Positions 47,506-61,853 of a DNA stretch of 64,000 nt are shown here, in pieces. How positions within the stretch are numbered: position 1 is the first letter of the stretch; every line of letters begins with the position of its first letter. Both the position numbers and the translations under genes were made by a program. Under the pieces are notes generated by a model that saw only the letters and a program-made list of their open reading frames with translations, had not been told where the DNA came from and did no database searches. This DNA comes from Thermodesulfobacteriota bacterium (GTDB lineage Bacteria; Desulfobacterota; Syntrophorhabdia; Syntrophorhabdales; JANXAF01). The DNA is taken from contig JANXAF010000001.1 of assembly GCA_025062045.1 (NCBI GenBank), positions 205,256 to 269,255 on the forward strand. Reading direction: 5' to 3'.

Positions 47506-48660
47506 TCAGTCAGCCTGCTTTCTCATAAAAGTCGGTATATCGTAGGTTTCATCAGTAAAATCGGTAATCTTCGTTTTCTTTTTTATCTCCGGATAGTTTA
47601 CCCTCACGTTTTTCCTAATAAAAGGGGGTAGATCGTCCTGGTTAAAGAGTACGGCATGCTTTATCTTTTCTTTCAGTTCGTCTTTTACTTGCATTTTCTC
47701 TTCAAATCCGGTGGCAATGACTGTTATTCTTATTCTGTCCTCCATACTATCATCGAAGACAAGACCCCAAATCACCTTTGCTTCTGGATGTGCCTGTTCC
47801 TGGATCATGGAAGAAGCTTCGTTTATTTCGTAGAGCGTCATGTCCTTGCTTCCAGTTATGTTTATAAGGACACCTCGGGCCCCATTAATCGATATGTCTT
47901 CTAGTAATGGACTGTAAATCGCTTTTTGAGCCGCTTCTTTTGCCCTGTTCTCCCCCTGCGCCTCTCCAACCCCCATAATTGCCATTCCCTTTTCTGACAT
48001 TATGGTCCTTACATCTGCAAAATCCACAACTATATGTCCCGAACCTACTATGAGATCTGAGATGCTGCGTACTGCGTTCATGAGAACCTCATCGGCCTTA
48101 TAGAAGGCCTGTATTATCGACATATGCTTTCCTCCTATGGCCATAAGCCTCTGATTCGGAATAGTTATAAGCGAATCAACCCTCTGTTTTAGCTCTATCA
48201 CACCTTTTTCAGCCTGTTGCATTCTTATCTGTCCCTCAAATGCGAATGGCTTCGTCACTATTGCGACTGTAAGAGCGCCAAGCTCTTTGGCCACTTCCGC
48301 TATCACAGGAGAAGCCCCTGTCCCCGTACCTCCACCGAGACCGCAGGTTATAAAAATCATATCAGCACCTTTTAGATGCTCCGTGATTGTGTCTATGTCT
48401 TCAAGTGCCGCCTTCCTGCCGACTTCCGGGTCAGCACCAGCACCGAGTCCTCTCGTAAGTTTAGAGCCGATCTGGATCTTTATAGGGGCCTTACAGAGAC
48501 TCAATGACTTAAGATCGGTATTTACAGCGATGAACTCTACCCCCTTGATTTTAGCCTCCACCATGTTGTTTAAGGCATTACAGCCTCCGCCTCCTACCCC
48601 AACTACTTTCAAATTCGCAGAGAAACCGTGACTCTCATCTAGATAAAAGGCCTTGCCCAT
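47506..48660 (-). CDS. ftsZ: Cell division GTPase FtsZ
   Basis: 384 residues. Tubulin/FtsZ GTP-binding motif CGLGGGTGTGASPV at about residues 105-118, N-terminal VVGVGGGGCNALNNM, and a conserved C-terminal peptide DIPTFMRKQ that binds FtsA and other partners. All essential motifs are intact. Last dcw gene in the cluster, 13 nt after ftsA. Confidence 0.98.
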   Translation of the reverse strand: MGKAFYLDESHGFSANLKVVGVGGGGCNALNNMVEAKIKGVEFIAVNTDLKSLSLCKAPIKIQIGSKLTRGLGAGADPEVGRKAALEDIDTITEHLKGADMIFITCGLGGGTGTGASPVIAEVAKELGALTVAIVTKPFAFEGQIRMQQAEKGVIELKQRVDSLITIPNQRLMAIGGKHMSIIQAFYKADEVLMNAVRSISDLIVGSGHIVVDFADVRTIMSEKGMAIMGVGEAQGENRAKEAAQKAIYSPLLEDISINGARGVLINITGSKDMTLYEINEASSMIQEQAHPEAKVIWGLVFDDSMEDRIRITVIATGFEEKMQVKDELKEKIKHAVLFNQDDLPPFIRKNVRVNYPEIKKKTKITDFTDETYDIPTFMRKQAD

Positions 48661-48673
48661 TCTCTCTCCTCCT

Positions 48674-49918
48674 TTAAAATGTTTCTATAAACCATCTCTT
48701 CATTCGACTTAGGATGTTTTTCGTTTCCATGAGGTATCTTGGGCCACTCTTTCTTTTTTTGCCCTTTGATAAAAGCTGCCTATATCCGTAAAGTACAAGC
48801 CCAACTCCTGTGGAATAGATTGGATTATTTATCACATCCACGAGACCACCTACCCCCTGTGGATAGCCTATCCTCACTGGCATATCATTAAAGACGTTTT
48901 CAAAAAGCTCGGCGATCCCTTCCAGATTAGAAGTCCCACCTGTAAGGACAGCACCAGAGGCGAGTACTTTCTCGGTGCCTGATTTTTTAATCTCTTCGTA
49001 AATCATTCGACCTATTTCTTCCACTCTTGGTTCTATTATGTCGGCCAAGGTCTTCCTCATAAGAACTCTCGGTTTTCTTCCGCCCACACTTGGAACTTCA
49101 ATCGTCTCATTAGTTCCCACAAGAGCTGAAAAAGCACAACCGTATTTTTTCTTTATCTTTTCAGCCTCTTCTAGGGGTGTTCTTAATCCTATCGCTATGT
49201 CGTTTGTTATGTTGCTCCCTCCAAATGGGATTATGGATGTGTAACGGATACTACCATTTGCGAATATGGCGATATCGCTAGTTCCCCCACCGATGTCTAT
49301 TAGGGCTACTCCTATCTCCTTCTCCTCCGGACTCAAAGTTGCTTCCGATGATGCAAGTTGACCGAGAATTATATCTTCCACTTCCAGTCCTGCCACTCTC
49401 AAACATTTAAGTACATTCTGGACCGCTGACACACTTCCCGTTATGATATGTACTTTCACCTCCAACCTTACCCCTTGTATGCCTAGGGGGTCTTTTATTC
49501 CATCTTGATCGTCCACAATGTACTCTTGAGGAATCACGTGGAGGATCTGTCTGTCAGCCGGGATAGCTACTGCTTTTGCGGCATCTATAGCCCTCACTAT
49601 GTCATCCTCTCGCACCTCCTTGTCTCTTATTGCAACAACCCCGTTGCTGTTGAAACTCTTTATGTGCGATCCACCTATCGATGCGACACAATGGGTTATT
49701 TTTATTCCGGCCATAAGTTCGGCTTCATGTACCGCTTTCTTAATCGAGTTTATGGTGCTGTCCATGTTGACTACAACCCCCTTCCTCAAACCGGATGATG
49801 GGTGGGAACCGATACCTACTATGTTGAGTTTTTCGTCTGAGACTTTGGATACAATGACGCATATCTTAGTTGTACCGATATCCACACCCACAATCACATC
49901 GTCTTCCCTAACCATCAT
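48674..49918 (-). CDS. ftsA: Cell division protein FtsA
   Basis: 414 residues, actin-like ATPase: VIVGVDIGTTKICVIVS, VALIDIGGGTSDIAIF, and GAVLTGGTSNLEGIAEL. The 1C domain is present. A C-terminal amphipathic end (ILSRMKRWFIETF) could serve as membrane anchor. Tethers FtsZ to the membrane. Overlaps ftsQ by 4 nt. Confidence 0.97.
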   Translation of the reverse strand: MMVREDDVIVGVDIGTTKICVIVSKVSDEKLNIVGIGSHPSSGLRKGVVVNMDSTINSIKKAVHEAELMAGIKITHCVASIGGSHIKSFNSNGVVAIRDKEVREDDIVRAIDAAKAVAIPADRQILHVIPQEYIVDDQDGIKDPLGIQGVRLEVKVHIITGSVSAVQNVLKCLRVAGLEVEDIILGQLASSEATLSPEEKEIGVALIDIGGGTSDIAIFANGSIRYTSIIPFGGSNITNDIAIGLRTPLEEAEKIKKKYGCAFSALVGTNETIEVPSVGGRKPRVLMRKTLADIIEPRVEEIGRMIYEEIKKSGTEKVLASGAVLTGGTSNLEGIAELFENVFNDMPVRIGYPQGVGGLVDVINNPIYSTGVGLVLYGYRQLLSKGKKRKSGPRYLMETKNILSRMKRWFIETF

Positions 49919-50616
49919 CCCTCCCCTCTTTCCCGGATGATCGCCCCTTTTTCAAAACGAGCATCTATGCATTTTATAAGGACACCTCTTCTTTTCGCAT
50001 CTTCCATGACTTTAAGCGCCTTCTTTAACCTTTTTTCAAAATCCTCTCGCCCTAGCAGAATCTCAACGCTATCTGTTGTTACAACCCGGACAGCTTTCCG
50101 AGAATAGACAAGTTCAGCTATAAAATCGGATTTTACGATGTTTTGGGCTACCCATCCCTTAAGAAGGATTAACCCTTCTTTTAAATTTTCCTCATTCTCC
50201 GCGTGTATTAGTGGAAGCTTGCTCTTTTCTCTGAGCATAAGATCCCTAAATGGTCTACCCTCCTCATCGACGATTTTTACGGTTCCGTCGGGTTTAGCCC
50301 AAAGCGCTGTGGGCGATTTTTCTCTTATCGCAATGTGTAAGTAGAAAGGATAAACCCTCTTCACTTTAACTTCCGCCACGTAAGGATGGGCCATAAGTGC
50401 TTTTCTTATGGTTTGGGTGTCAAGGTTTAGGATACTTTTACCCAATTTCGGAAGGACAAGCGAGATTATCTCTTCCTCCTTTATTTGGTCACATCCTGAG
50501 ACCTTTATCCCTTTGAGCCTTAAGATAGGTTCCTCTTTGATAAACAATGTAAAGACCACAGGAAATGAGATTAGAGAAACCGCAATAAAAAACGAAATAT
50601 AGACCATCTTTCTCAT
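49915..50616 (-). CDS. ftsQ: Cell division protein FtsQ
   Basis: 233 residues: one N-terminal membrane helix (VYISFFIAVSLISFPVVFTLF), then a POTRA domain (LRLKGIKVSGCDQIKEEEI; HPYVAEVKVKRVYPFYLHIAI) and a FtsQ-type C-terminal domain. Recruits FtsL and the FtsWI complex in model bacteria. Overlaps ddl and ftsA by 4 nt. Confidence 0.92.
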   Translation of the reverse strand: MRKMVYISFFIAVSLISFPVVFTLFIKEEPILRLKGIKVSGCDQIKEEEIISLVLPKLGKSILNLDTQTIRKALMAHPYVAEVKVKRVYPFYLHIAIREKSPTALWAKPDGTVKIVDEEGRPFRDLMLREKSKLPLIHAENEENLKEGLILLKGWVAQNIVKSDFIAELVYSRKAVRVVTTDSVEILLGREDFEKRLKKALKVMEDAKRRGVLIKCIDARFEKGAIIRERGEG

Positions 50617-53774: not shown

Positions 53775-54832
53775 GACCCTAAACCTAGAATCTCATTAGC
53801 AATCCTTTCTTCCGCGTCATCTACATAAATCTGTCCCATTCTCTCTCCCATGGCTTTTAGGATGTCTGGATTTCTCGAAAGCTCCATAAGCTTCCTGTAA
53901 AGCACCTCCCCTGAAAGCTCACCGTCCGCAATAACGTAGGCAGCACCCAATCTTTCAACGTAAAGCGCGTTCTTTAGCTGGTGCTTACCGGCAGAATAGG
54001 GATAGGGAACCAAAATAGCGGGTTTCTTAGTACAGGCAAGCTCAAATATGGTACTCGAACCCGCTCTCGAAATGACAAGGTCGGAAAGACCCAAATAATA
54101 TCCCATTTCTTCTGTGAAAGAAAAGATTTCCCCTGAGATTGAATTTTTTAAGTAAGCCTCCCTCACCCATTCTAAGTCCTCACTACCAGTCTGATGATAG
54201 ATCGCGAATAGATCTCTATCATCAATGAGGGGAAGAAGCTCCACCATGGCCTGATTTATCCTTTTTGCTCCTCTACTTCCTCCAAATACCAGTATTCGAA
54301 ACTTTCCGTTAGGCTTTTTGTGTGTGGCTTTCTTTATAACTTTTCTTACAGGATTGCCGGTATACTTGTAGTTCCTTATACTATATAGCTTTGCTGTTTC
54401 TTCAAAGCTCAAAAATATCTTTTTTACGCCTCTATAAAGGATTCGGTTTGCAAGCCCTAGAGTGAGGTTCTGCTCGTGCAAAAAGCAATCTACCCCTACG
54501 AGTTTGCCCGCCAATATACAAGGAAAGGAAACAAATCCACCCATTCCTAGTATGGCATTAGCCTTCTCTTTTTTTACTATCCGAAGGCAGTCTAGGATCC
54601 CCATTAAGACCTTTGTTAGCGTTTTTGCTTTTGTACCTAAATTTTTTCCCGCGAACTGACCGGTCCTTATTGTAACTAATCTGAAACCGTATTTCGGAAC
54701 TATGTTCGCTTCCATTCCCTTGTCTGTGCCAAGAAAAAGTACCTCAGCACCTTTCTCTTTTAGTTTTTCAGCTATAGATATACCCGGATATATGTGACCG
54801 CCCGTTCCACCCGCGGCAATTATCACTTTCAT
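53771..54832 (-). CDS. murG: Lipid II synthase MurG
   Basis: 353 residues, GT28: IIAAGGTGGHIYPGISIAEKL, LGMGGFVSFPCILAGKLVGV, LVFGGSRGAKRINQAM, and ISRAGSSTIFELACTKKPAILVPYP. Transfers GlcNAc to lipid I. Intact, so lipid II can be made. Overlaps the protein in the ftsW position by 4 nt. Confidence 0.97.
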   Translation of the reverse strand: MKVIIAAGGTGGHIYPGISIAEKLKEKGAEVLFLGTDKGMEANIVPKYGFRLVTIRTGQFAGKNLGTKAKTLTKVLMGILDCLRIVKKEKANAILGMGGFVSFPCILAGKLVGVDCFLHEQNLTLGLANRILYRGVKKIFLSFEETAKLYSIRNYKYTGNPVRKVIKKATHKKPNGKFRILVFGGSRGAKRINQAMVELLPLIDDRDLFAIYHQTGSEDLEWVREAYLKNSISGEIFSFTEEMGYYLGLSDLVISRAGSSTIFELACTKKPAILVPYPYSAGKHQLKNALYVERLGAAYVIADGELSGEVLYRKLMELSRNPDILKAMGERMGQIYVDDAEERIANEILGLGS

Positions 54833-55623
54833 ATAAGCTCCGTTTCTCTTTTCATAATTGGTCCAGCACTAATTATGAGAATCGTAGCCAAAATATTTTT
54901 TTCCTTGAAAAGCCCGCATCCAAAACCAAGACCGGTCAAAAGAATCACGTCAAAAACAACAGAAAGCATTCCAAAAAAGAAAAGTAAGATTGCGGGATTC
55001 TCATCCTTAGTCCTTACAAAAAGGAAAAAGCTCAGACTAAAAAGACAGAAAGAGGCAAAAAAGAGAAAAACCTTTTGAGACTGAGAAAGGCTCGGCCTTT
55101 CCCCAAAAACGTTGAAGTCCCCCATCCAAAGAAAAATCCCTAAAAAAACGGCAAATAGAATGAGACACGCGAGTCTTTTTGTGCTTCCCAGAGTATAAAA
55201 ATAGGCAATCCCCGCAAGACACAGAGGTTTTATAAGCGGCAGCTTGCCCACACTGAAGAGGTTTACTGCGGAACTCAGATAAACTACGATTAGCGGAAGG
55301 CACGATTTCAAAATTCCCCTTTCATCCATAAAACAACACCCCAAAAAAAGAAGAATCGAGCAGACAGAAATCGTTGCCACCGCATGGGGTACTATTGGAA
55401 CCTCAAAAAGATTGGGAAAAAAAGGTAAAACTAGGCTCATCAATAGACTTAGTGCCACTACTACGTATTTTGCAAAGTAAAGGTATTTCAATCTCAATTT
55501 ACTCACAAATAACGTAAACAAGGACCCAGAAAGGATAGTCAAAAGACTCTTGAGGTTTATCTGGCCTAAGTATCCATAAAGCAAAAACGCGCTTAGTATG
55601 ATCAAAAGAACTTTTTTCATCAT
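54829..55623 (-). CDS. Polytopic protein in the ftsW position, SEDS signature lost
   Basis: 264 residues, eight to nine hydrophobic segments, between murD and murG exactly where ftsW lies in other dcw clusters. FtsW is normally about 370-400 residues with ten helices. Traces of FtsW remain: RLKYLYFAKYVVVALSLLMS resembles the helix-3 region, and the C-terminal KNILATILIISAGPIMKRE resembles the usual SSLxATxxxxGxxLNISR. The large external loop that carries the catalytic Asp and the GxGLG...HTDFI signature is missing, so glycan polymerisation is unlikely. The reading frame is open and overlaps both neighbours by 4 nt. It may be a reduced FtsW relative or an unrelated replacement; homology is weak by eye. 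Confidence 0.6.
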   Translation of the reverse strand: MMKKVLLIILSAFLLYGYLGQINLKSLLTILSGSLFTLFVSKLRLKYLYFAKYVVVALSLLMSLVLPFFPNLFEVPIVPHAVATISVCSILLFLGCCFMDERGILKSCLPLIVVYLSSAVNLFSVGKLPLIKPLCLAGIAYFYTLGSTKRLACLILFAVFLGIFLWMGDFNVFGERPSLSQSQKVFLFFASFCLFSLSFFLFVRTKDENPAILLFFFGMLSVVFDVILLTGLGFGCGLFKEKNILATILIISAGPIMKRETELI

Positions 55624-58027: not shown

Positions 58028-59382
58028 CAGATAATCTCCTCAACAATCTTGTCCATGTTCAAGGCTCTAGAACCTTTAATTAGTACGCAATCTCCTTCCT
58101 TGAGTACTGAGGTAAGCTTCTCAAGTAAGCCTTGTATATCTTCAAAGTAAAAAACGTTTTCTTTTTGGGCCTCAAAATAAGCGTCGTAAATCTTCTCACC
58201 GAACAAAAAAACACAGTCAAAGTTCATACTCTTTATGTGCCTTCCAAGCTCCCTGTGATAGTAAGATGAGTATTCTCCGAGTTCGTTCATGTCTCCGAGA
58301 ACAAGAATCTTTTTTCCTTCGCACGGGAGTAAACTTAAGGTTTTTACGGCTTCGTACATGGAAGCAGGATTCGCATTGTAGGTATCATCAATAACGGTGT
58401 AGCCTCTCTTCGATCTTTTAGGACACATCCGCATAGGATAAGGTTCAAATTCTTCAACACCCTCTGCTATCTTATCTTGCCCTACGCCAAGGATGAAGGC
58501 GACTAAGGATGCAATAAGAACATTGTAAAGGTTATGGAAGCCTATGAGTCTAGTTTTAGTACGTATTTTTTCTCCCATAAAGTCTAACGTAACCTTATAG
58601 CCTTGCCAGCCCAAATCTTTTTCCACCGTCAAGGAAAAATGTCCAGGATTTTTTATTCCGAAATAGAGTGTCCGTTTTTTCTCATCTTTATAATTCGTCA
58701 GAAGCTTATCGTCTCTGTTTACGAGAATCGTTCCACCGTCTTTCGTGTATCTAAAAATGTCCAGTTTCTCGTTAAGGATCCCTTCTATACTACCTAAACC
58801 TTCAAGGTGAGCTGGGTTCACGTTCGTGATTACTGAGACATCAGGTTCTACTATCTCTGTGAGTGTTCTTATCTCACCCGGAAAATTTGTTCCTAATTCG
58901 AAAACCCCTACTTTTGGACTTTGCTTAATCGAGATAAGCTTCGAGCAAACACCGAAGATGTTATTGTAATTCTTCTCGTTAAATTCTATGGAGAAAGCCT
59001 TTTTAGTTATGTTCACAAGGATTTCCTTGGTTGTGGTCTTTCCACAGCTTCCTGTTATGGCGACAAATGTGGAATCCAAAAGCTTTCTTCTGAAACGGGC
59101 AATGTCAATAAAGGCTCTGTTTGTATCATGAACGGTAATTATTGTTCCTTCTGTGTCTTTAACCCTTGCTACCTTACTCTCTTCACAAAGCGTTCCTCCT
59201 CCTTTTTTCTCAATGGCATCTCTTATGAAATCGTGGCCGTCAAATCTTTTGCCTTTGAGAGGGATAAAGAGTTCGCCTTCCTTTATCGTTCTCGAATCAG
59301 TCGATATTCCTGGGAAAGATTCTTGTTTGAGTCTGTAGAGTTTTCCACCTGTTGCCGAAATGATGTCTTTATAGTACCACAC
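58027..59382 (-). CDS. murF: UDP-N-acetylmuramoyl-tripeptide--D-alanyl-D-alanine ligase
   Basis: 451 residues. FPGISTDSRTIKEGELFIPL, ATP site VAITGSCGKTTTKEILVNI (CGKTT rather than the common NGKTT), NPAHLEGLGSIEG, and VIDDTYNANPASMYEAVKTL. Adds D-Ala-D-Ala. Overlaps murE by 14 nt and mraY by 1 nt. Confidence 0.96.
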   Translation of the reverse strand: MWYYKDIISATGGKLYRLKQESFPGISTDSRTIKEGELFIPLKGKRFDGHDFIRDAIEKKGGGTLCEESKVARVKDTEGTIITVHDTNRAFIDIARFRRKLLDSTFVAITGSCGKTTTKEILVNITKKAFSIEFNEKNYNNIFGVCSKLISIKQSPKVGVFELGTNFPGEIRTLTEIVEPDVSVITNVNPAHLEGLGSIEGILNEKLDIFRYTKDGGTILVNRDDKLLTNYKDEKKRTLYFGIKNPGHFSLTVEKDLGWQGYKVTLDFMGEKIRTKTRLIGFHNLYNVLIASLVAFILGVGQDKIAEGVEEFEPYPMRMCPKRSKRGYTVIDDTYNANPASMYEAVKTLSLLPCEGKKILVLGDMNELGEYSSYYHRELGRHIKSMNFDCVFLFGEKIYDAYFEAQKENVFYFEDIQGLLEKLTSVLKEGDCVLIKGSRALNMDKIVEEII

Positions 59383-60820
59383 GGAGGGCCTCCTCGATCA
59401 CTTCTCTATCACTAAAATGGAGAACTTTATCCCCCACTATCTGGTAGTCTTCGTGACCTTTCCCTGCAACCAATAAGACATCTTCAGGGTTCATAAGTTT
59501 TACCGCCTCGTAAATGGCCTCTTTTCTGTCAACGATAATTTTATAGTTATCTTTTATAGCACCCTTCCTTATCTCTTCGATTATGAGCAATGGATCCTCA
59601 CTTCTCGGGTTATCGGAAGTTATGATGGAAAAATCAGCAATGGTCGTCGCAATTCTTCCCATGATTGGCCTTTTTTCTTTATCCCTGTCACCTCCGCACC
59701 CGAACACAACTATAAGCCTTCCCTTTTTTAACTCCGATAGAGTTTCTAGAACCTCCTTTAGTGCATGAGGTGTATGAGCGTAGTCAACAAATATTTTATA
59801 GCCTTTAGAGTTTTTTATTCTTTCCAACCTCCCAGGCACACCTTGGAAAGCCTCAAGACCCCTTTCTATCTTCGTCCTTTCTATTCCAATAACCTTAAGA
59901 GCCAAAGATGCAGCAAGGATATTGTAAAGGTTAAACTTTCCGATAAGATTAGATGAGACTTTCAACTTTTCCTTTAAAACTGTGATTTCCGCCTCTATTC
60001 CTTCCAGCGTCTGCTCGTATCTCAAAACTTGAGTATGGGTGCCCCTTTTTAAGCCAAAAAAGTAGGTTTCTATTCCATTGCCTGTGATAAAATAGGAGAC
60101 ATTCGGGTCGTCACCATTTAAGATTGCAATCTTTCTTGGTTTTAGGCTTCTTTTCAAGTAGTAATTAAAGAGGAGAGCTTTTGCCTCTCTATAGTTTGAA
60201 AAACTTCCGTGGTAGTCTAAATGATCATGGGAAATGTTGGTAAACACACACACATCGAAGTGGACACCCTCAACCCGCTTCTGGTCAAGGGCATGCGAAG
60301 ATACTTCCATTACCACATGGGTGATTTCGGCCTTCCTCATCTCGTTAAAAATGGTCTGAAGTTCAATTGCTCCGGGTGTTGTATTCTCCGATTTGAATAT
60401 TCGATTGCCGTATCTATGAAATACGGTGCCTATGAGACCGGTTTTTATTGAGTCTGAAGAGAGGACATGATCTATTAGGAAAGCGGTTGTTGTCTTTCCA
60501 TTCGTCCCTGTGATTCCTAAAACAAACATATTCTTTGTCGGCTCTTTAAAAAATCTCGATGCAATTTCTCCTATCGATCTCTCCACGTTTTTTACACGAA
60601 CAAAACAAGGAACATTTACGTATCCGTCCATGTCCGTTATGATTACTTTTGCGCCGGAAGCTATTGCCTCGCCTAAATATGGCGCATTTTTCTTAGTGAG
60701 GAAGAAAAGGTAGCCCTCCCTTACAAGACGGGAGTCCTTCGATATTCCGTTTACCCATATGTCCTTAGAACCTATAACTTCTTCTATGTCCAGTTCGACG
60801 AGCAAATCTTTAAGTCTCAT
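59369..60820 (-). CDS. murE: UDP-N-acetylmuramyl-tripeptide synthetase (meso-DAP-adding)
   Basis: About 483 residues. VNGISKDSRLVREGYLFF, ATP site LGITGTNGKTTTAFLIDHV, CVFTNISHDHLDYHGSFSNY, and the substrate-selecting motif SDNPRSEDP. The DNPR motif indicates meso-diaminopimelate, so the cell wall should be the Gram-negative A1-gamma type. The start at 60820 overlaps the stop of the ftsI-position gene as ATGA; a start at 60850 would lie inside it. Confidence 0.97.
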   Translation of the reverse strand: MRLKDLLVELDIEEVIGSKDIWVNGISKDSRLVREGYLFFLTKKNAPYLGEAIASGAKVIITDMDGYVNVPCFVRVKNVERSIGEIASRFFKEPTKNMFVLGITGTNGKTTTAFLIDHVLSSDSIKTGLIGTVFHRYGNRIFKSENTTPGAIELQTIFNEMRKAEITHVVMEVSSHALDQKRVEGVHFDVCVFTNISHDHLDYHGSFSNYREAKALLFNYYLKRSLKPRKIAILNGDDPNVSYFITGNGIETYFFGLKRGTHTQVLRYEQTLEGIEAEITVLKEKLKVSSNLIGKFNLYNILAASLALKVIGIERTKIERGLEAFQGVPGRLERIKNSKGYKIFVDYAHTPHALKEVLETLSELKKGRLIVVFGCGGDRDKEKRPIMGRIATTIADFSIITSDNPRSEDPLLIIEEIRKGAIKDNYKIIVDRKEAIYEAVKLMNPEDVLLVAGKGHEDYQIVGDKVLHFSDREVIEEALRVVL

Positions 60821-61563
60821 GGCCGATTGAGCGTCCCCCAAAGGACACATTCAGTCTCAGAAGTCACTTTTTCGTAAGGGAGCGGTCTTTGGTCTTGAAC
60901 CTCTCCGAACCCGAAAACTTTTATCTTCGTGGTGTACTGGTTTATAAGATATATGGCCTCTCTTATCGGATAGCCTCTTAGGTCCGGCATTATCCAGTGC
61001 TTGGCCGATGAATTAGCCTCCTTTTTTTCGACGTGTCTTTCTTCTTCAGCCGAAAAAACGCTTGCGTATTTTTCATAAAGTTCAGCTATCTTCTCTTTTG
61101 TTATAAAGTACCCTTTTCCGAGAAGGATGTCTTCAGTATTCAAATTCTTTGGAACTTCAATCCCCTCTTTTTCCAGAAAGCGTAAAAGGTAAGTCTTTCC
61201 AAGAAGTTGGAAAAGACTTTTCAGACCCTCTTTGTCCTTATGCTCGATTATTTCTAAGGGCTTTTTACACGACATATTATCACCACTTTCGACCAAAATC
61301 AAATAGTCTTTGTCTATCTTTCCTTCGGATATCGCACAGAGAAGGAGGACCGATGCAAAACTGAAAGGGTTATCGCTAATTGAGTACGACAGGTGTCGGC
61401 TTTTATGGGTTTCAAGGATTTCGGCCGATGTTGGAGTCCTAAATTTTTCAGATTCTGTCCTTTTTAGTTCCATTTTCCTATGGACGTCAAAGCCCAAAAC
61501 CGAATATATGAGAGTGACCGTTATGAAGACGAATAGGGCTCTCCTGTTCGTTTTCTTTTTCAT
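60817..61563 (-). CDS. Catalytically dead FtsI remnant with PASTA-like domain (ftsI position)
   Basis: 248 residues where FtsI normally has 550-650. Membrane anchor at residues 9-25. Residues 62-90 and 104-168 can be aligned by eye to parts of the transpeptidase fold. The catalytic SxxK aligns to Phe67-Ser-Phe-Ala70, SxN to His108-Lys-Asp110, and the KTG half of the domain is absent; LLGKGYFITKEKIAELYEKY matches the segment after the usual FGQGxxVTPLQLAxAYAA. The pedestal domain is gone. Residues 191-245 (IMPDLRGYPIREAIYLINQY) look like the C-terminal PASTA domain. The frame is open and overlaps ftsL and murE by 4 nt each, which argues against recent decay. Non-catalytic scaffold role is inference. 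Confidence 0.7.
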   Translation of the reverse strand: MKKKTNRRALFVFITVTLIYSVLGFDVHRKMELKRTESEKFRTPTSAEILETHKSRHLSYSISDNPFSFASVLLLCAISEGKIDKDYLILVESGDNMSCKKPLEIIEHKDKEGLKSLFQLLGKTYLLRFLEKEGIEVPKNLNTEDILLGKGYFITKEKIAELYEKYASVFSAEEERHVEKKEANSSAKHWIMPDLRGYPIREAIYLINQYTTKIKVFGFGEVQDQRPLPYEKVTSETECVLWGTLNRP

Positions 61564-61853
61564 CTAACAACGTAGACGTCTTCCTCTTTAGCCTTTTTTA
61601 ATCCTAGTCTTTCCTGTGCAACAAGAGTCAGGAAACGTTCTCGAGTAATTGTGGCAATCTCTGTCCGTAACTGCTCGTTTTCGAAACTAAGATTCTTTTC
61701 GATTTCAAGTTTACTTATTAGCTCTCCTTTGAGTGAGCCACAAAAGCTATTAAGCAAAGAAAAGATCACGAAAAAAAGTGCTGACAACACCCAATAGATG
61801 ATCAAGGTACGGTTGACTCTTTTCCGTTTTTTTCTAGACCCCAAAACTCCCAT
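61560..61853 (-). CDS. ftsL: Cell division protein FtsL
   Basis: 97 residues: basic N-terminus, one helix (LIIYWVLSALFFVIFSLLNSF), then a coiled coil (LEIEKNLSFENEQLRTEIATI) ending with ERLGLKKAKEEDVYVVR. Fits FtsL by position (rsmH-ftsL-ftsI slot), size and layout. Partner of FtsQ and FtsB. Retained although its usual partners FtsW and FtsI look inactive. Confidence 0.85.
   Translation of the reverse strand: MGVLGSRKKRKRVNRTLIIYWVLSALFFVIFSLLNSFCGSLKGELISKLEIEKNLSFENEQLRTEIATITRERFLTLVAQERLGLKKAKEEDVYVVR

Follow-up and report, generated by a model that had tools for sequence, protein, structure and literature searches.

In most bacteria, FtsI and FtsW are regarded as the enzymes that make the division wall. 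In a report on C. difficile, the two proteins are said to count as universally essential for making the septal wall, and a class A PBP is given as the septal synthase of that organism, in which the corresponding slots hold the full-length, sporulation-specific proteins SpoVE and SpoVD (PMC10693644; PMC12539705). In addition, PBP3 of C. difficile is a class B PBP that acts in division without catalysis (PMC12539705), and the structural division role of B. subtilis PBP2B is separable from its catalytic one (PMC5656894). C. difficile is the closest precedent for the locus described here, and the sole close one that we found for the loss of functional FtsW and FtsI.

The window, i.e. the whole stretch of 64,000 nucleotides that was analyzed, belongs to a genome of 1.76 Mb (29 contigs, 97% complete) from the order Syntrophorhabdales. 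These are anaerobic bacteria. The listing of relatives jumps from order to phylum, which suggests that it contains no second order of the class; on this ground and on that of the taxonomy, we take the order to represent the whole class. A complete dcw cluster runs along the minus strand in the order mraZ, rsmH, ftsL, ftsI slot, murE, murF, mraY, murD, ftsW slot, murG, murC, murB, ddl, ftsQ, ftsA and ftsZ. A first-pass annotation made from these letters had described the cluster as being in full order apart from a truncated, catalytically dead ftsI; the gene order was borne out, but the ftsW slot is reduced as well, which had been missed. We refer to the reduced proteins of the two slots as FtsI-r and FtsW-r, respectively. 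In 15 loci of the phylum where both FtsI and FtsW were found, FtsW lies ~5–6 kb downstream of FtsI, the same spacing as that of the two slots here.

The FtsI-r frame (61563–60817, minus strand) has an ATG start, encodes the 248 residues claimed earlier and contains no internal stop. It overlaps by 4 nt (61560–61563) with ftsL (61560..61853, minus strand), a gene for 97 aa assigned from its slot and from family conservation; the ftsL slot product is conserved in the order and has no Pfam match. On the other side lies murE (59369..60850, minus strand), and here the 4-nt overlap that had been reported for both flanks holds only when the second Met of murE (60820) is taken as the start, the longest ORF giving an overlap of 34 nt. 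FtsW-r (54829..55623, minus strand; 264 aa) overlaps its neighbors murD and murG by 4 nt. Farther along the same strand are ftsQ (49915..50616), which encodes a POTRA and an FtsQ_DivIB_C domain, ftsA (48674..49918) and ftsZ (47506..48660).

An AlphaFold2 (AF2) model of FtsI-r built with 22 sequences (mean pLDDT 72) displayed the following parts, all encoded on the minus strand: (i) a long N-terminal helix forming the membrane anchor (residues 1–37, 61453..61563), modeled as a helix from residue 3 to 37 and with A9, Y20 and R35 invariant; (ii) a variable linker at the place of the pedestal (residues 38–64, 61372..61452), which differs in length within the family and lies in a stretch of low confidence (pLDDT <50 for residues 33–64); (iii) what remains of the helical subdomain of the transpeptidase (residues 64–170, 61054..61374), reaching from the former SxxK region across SxN as far as GQGI-VT-QL; and (iv) a C-terminal PASTA domain (residues 189–242, 60838..60999). 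In Foldseek searches the PASTA part matched the PASTA domains of PBP1 and StkP with a probability of 1.00, and the helical part matched PBP3, PBP2x and class A and D β-lactamases with probabilities mostly of 0.9–1.0 and E values of ~0.02 or worse. Hence both the transpeptidase-fold stretches and the PASTA-like domain proposed earlier were recovered in the structural model. PASTA (PF03793) was the sole Pfam match of the FtsI-r family, found in 17 of the 22 members (best E 9e-7); neither the pedestal (PBP_dimer, PF03717) nor the transpeptidase domain (PF00905) gave a match.

The alignment of the 22 family members placed the SxxK Ser and Lys in the same columns as the first-pass annotation, namely at Phe67 and Ala70. 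The former column is generally L, F or Y, with Ser in one of the 22, and the latter contains only A, S, P or T. At the SxN position the family has (D/E/H)-(K/R)-D, with (D/E)-(K/R)-D being conserved, and no aligned element corresponds to KTG, so that none of the three motifs stands at its aligned position in any member. In the hhalign alignment the registers of SxxK and SxN were displaced by roughly one residue, and the conclusion stays the same. The predicted loss of the SxN motif, the KTG half and the pedestal was thus upheld, and the data support the reading of FtsI-r as a truncated and catalytically dead protein, for which no known mechanism would allow transpeptidase activity.

The origin of this protein was addressed by profile comparison. 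Since an hhalign run with the whole of FtsI-r caught the PASTA domain alone, which aligned with a probability of 97% to its counterpart in the normal FtsI of the phylum, the middle part was tested separately. It aligned to the transpeptidase domain of the phylum FtsI over 121 collinear columns; the E value of 2.6e-4 is weak, and none of 300 column shuffles scored as well. Among 395 genomes sampled across the phylum, full-length matches of FtsI-r were confined to members of the Syntrophorhabdales, and ~200 other genomes matched through PASTA only, in most cases at the C-terminal end of an open frame of 540–820 aa. The rest of the phylum possesses a normal FtsI with the same C-terminal PASTA domain. 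FtsI-r shares with that FtsI/PBP3 the slot between ftsL and murE, the membrane helix, the helical-subdomain remnant and the C-terminal PASTA domain; it differs in length (248 to ~345 aa in the reduced family against ~650 aa) and in lacking the pedestal, SxxK, SxN and KTG. On the combined evidence of dcw slot, membrane anchor, collinear transpeptidase remnant and the PASTA domain of the lineage, FtsI-r is a descendant of FtsI.

The second reduced protein is harder to place. SEDS proteins have ten transmembrane (TM) helices, and the best AF2 model of FtsW-r (mean pLDDT 77, the other four scoring 53–65) likewise contained ten long helices. WaaL and the SEDS enzymes are thought to share the GT-C fold; the best plausible Foldseek match of FtsW-r was a WaaL ligase (TMq 0.51), and no RodA, FtsW or other SEDS structure was among the best 50 matches. 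Against a profile of 20 FtsW sequences of the phylum, hhalign gave a score of 29, higher than all 300 of 300 shuffles, with an E value of 0.0045 and a probability of 8% marking the similarity as weak; the reversed profile, MraY and a small RodA profile, used as controls, scored 18, 19 and 18, respectively. With a smaller FtsW profile of five sequences the result was marginal (2 of 200 shuffles). TM2–TM4 were in register, and the TM9–TM10 region looked alike by eye. FtsW-r is shorter than FtsW (264 against ~365 aa) and has neither the HTDFIF loop that bears the catalytic Asp nor the GGA.RW/QPSE..K region nor the LPFxSYGGTS motif. That it is an unrelated membrane protein, with the reduction limited to FtsI, would fit the lack of a match to PF01098 or any other SEDS family in all 19 members searched and the weakness of the profile similarity, yet we consider this improbable: FtsW-r occupies the FtsW slot of the phylum between murD and murG, FtsW is otherwise missing, the ten helices are predicted, and the FtsW profile outscored shuffles, reversed profile and MraY with TM2–TM4 in register. 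We hence regard the protein in the ftsW slot as probably a dead FtsW, a view held less firmly than the descent of FtsI-r.

Both reduced genes are widespread in the order. FtsI-r was found in all 46 genomes, which represent three families, and FtsW-r in 45, the lone exception being a genome that is 66% complete; the dcw gene order was retained in the named loci of the order that were examined. The recurrence of the reduced ftsI in 46 genomes rules out an assembly deletion or a sequencing error as its cause. For close pairs of genomes, dN/dS was 0.11–0.31 for FtsI-r and 0.09–0.25 for FtsW-r, as compared to 0.02–0.23 for the neighboring genes examined; the values of the two reduced genes are similar to those of the adjacent mur genes, and each protein possesses residues that are invariant across the families. 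It could be argued from the shortening of both proteins and the loss of all catalytic motifs that they are decaying pseudogenes held in place by operon structure alone; this is scarcely credible in view of their retention in 46 and 45 genomes, the invariant residues and a dN/dS of 0.09–0.31, the last of which rules out decay. Both are under purifying selection, and the earlier suggestion that the ftsI-slot protein is truncated, dead and nevertheless maintained can be extended to an order-wide family in which no member has a catalytic motif.

With FtsI and FtsW persisting only in forms that lack active sites, the septal wall has to come from a different enzyme. Searches with PF00905 and PF01098 found no hidden intact FtsI or FtsW in this genome. 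The intact class B PBP that the first-pass annotation proposed to look for exists as a single protein, MrdA, encoded within an intact mreBCD operon, and the single SEDS protein is RodA, as identified by its position in the tree and in the series mreB-mreC-mreD-mrdA-rodA. There is one class A PBP. The set of peptidoglycan polymerases is thus minimal in this genome (one RodA, one class A PBP, no monofunctional GT51), and most relatives have at least two GT51 proteins. A second MreB paralog (G000:C3:138425-139396, E ~1e-129) was observed outside the window, besides the mreBCD copy, with similar second copies in most genomes of the order. RodA is present across the order. A relative-rate test for a repurposed RodA or MrdA revealed no change in rate.

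Outside the order, two SEDS proteins were found in 10 of 14 compared genomes. Also outside the order, the one SEDS match of G059 is broken into two parts that lie side by side (G059:C1:137697-138757), and G054 (85% complete) gave no SEDS match. Within the order, a second SEDS was seen only in G011, in G017 and as an FtsW fragment on a contig of G005. The first two, of genus g11, carry an accessory pair of SEDS protein and class B PBP (L115:2792-5976 and L116:111-3415, respectively), which adjoins genes for a Ser/Thr kinase, PP2C or sigma-factor-like proteins and forms a long separate SEDS branch. The G005 fragment is at the end of a contig (G005:C54; L117:2202-5060), where the C-terminal part of FtsW, murG and murC look foreign to the order and adjoin an order-like murB-ddl-ftsQ; it looks like a chimeric contig or a recombination. 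Short proteins with a transpeptidase domain (frames of 267–313 aa) occur in three genomes of the order (G004:C33:31108, G012:C58:23471 and G017:C25:39972) and are perhaps β-lactamases.

With regard to the divisome, FtsQ, FtsA, FtsZ and FtsB/DivIC are all present. SPOR-domain proteins were missing from this genome and, in the order as a whole, from 41 of 46 genomes, but each of the 14 compared genomes from outside has them, indicating that the usual trigger, an FtsN-type activator, has gone together with its enzyme.

The reading that we favor, and hold to be probable, is that FtsW-r and FtsI-r form a maintained, non-catalytic pair that keeps a structural role in the divisome, with the septum being made by a class A PBP or by RodA-MrdA. 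The two proteins would remain a structural component of the machinery, in company with FtsL, FtsQ and FtsB, the PASTA domain of FtsI-r perhaps contacting septal peptidoglycan, and the pair would recruit or gate another synthase. Both the structural role and the identity of the synthase are inferred. By analogy with C. difficile, a class A PBP would be the likeliest enzyme, and on balance we lean toward it; otherwise it would be RodA-MrdA, a candidate to be taken seriously even if we stop short of calling it probable. In its most explicit form, the latter would have RodA-MrdA making both side wall and septum, with the FtsW-r/FtsI-r pair as its adaptor to the Z ring. The genome has no SEDS/class B pair other than RodA-MrdA, RodA is found throughout the order, and the retained FtsQ, FtsA and FtsB are activators of SEDS–bPBP pairs in other bacteria. 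However, RodA and MrdA remain in a normal mreBCD operon and evolve at ordinary rates, and C. difficile in the same situation employs a class A PBP (PMC10693644), so that the adaptor scheme strikes us as possible but rather doubtful.

A role outside division is less likely still. In such a scheme the two proteins would have been repurposed, for instance for envelope sensing through PASTA, with nothing but the location of their genes still tying them to the dcw cluster. Against it speak the retention of both proteins together in 45 of 46 genomes, their position in the division operon with 4-nt overlaps to ftsL, murD and murG, and the preservation of FtsQ and FtsB despite the loss of their usual client enzymes. 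What lends it some appeal is that the PASTA domains of kinases and other proteins bind peptidoglycan. We consider this repurposing unlikely.

Compared with C. difficile, this lineage is alike in having no functional FtsW/FtsI for vegetative division and a single RodA–PBP2 pair (here RodA-MrdA), in the use of a class B PBP to promote septation in a non-catalytic way, the role proposed here for FtsI-r, and in the absence of FtsN, which parallels the absence of SPOR/FtsN in this genome and 41 of 46 of the order. It differs in that the slots hold dead, shortened proteins instead of full-length SpoVE and SpoVD, in that FtsA, lacking there, is present here, and in belonging to a separate, deltaproteobacterial group. 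PBP2B of B. subtilis, too, is a class B PBP that serves division structurally, as FtsI-r would; it is a complete, active enzyme, in contrast to the natural inactivity of FtsI-r. Our literature search, whose coverage left out many subscription journals and preprints, found no paper on division in Syntrophorhabdales or on dead SEDS proteins. To our knowledge, FtsW-r would be the first dead SEDS protein.

Taken as a class, these bacteria would then have kept the FtsW and FtsI proteins while losing the enzymes, outside the spore-forming Firmicutes, the group of the sole close precedent that we found. We think it fairly likely that the whole class divides with an FtsZ-based divisome in which the SEDS–bPBP core is a dead pseudo-enzyme complex that controls a foreign synthase. 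If true, the scaffolding function of FtsWI would here have been parted from the catalytic one in nature, and the question of scaffold versus catalysis would become testable by comparison. It also predicts that division in Syntrophorhabdales would be insensitive to β-lactams directed at FtsI.
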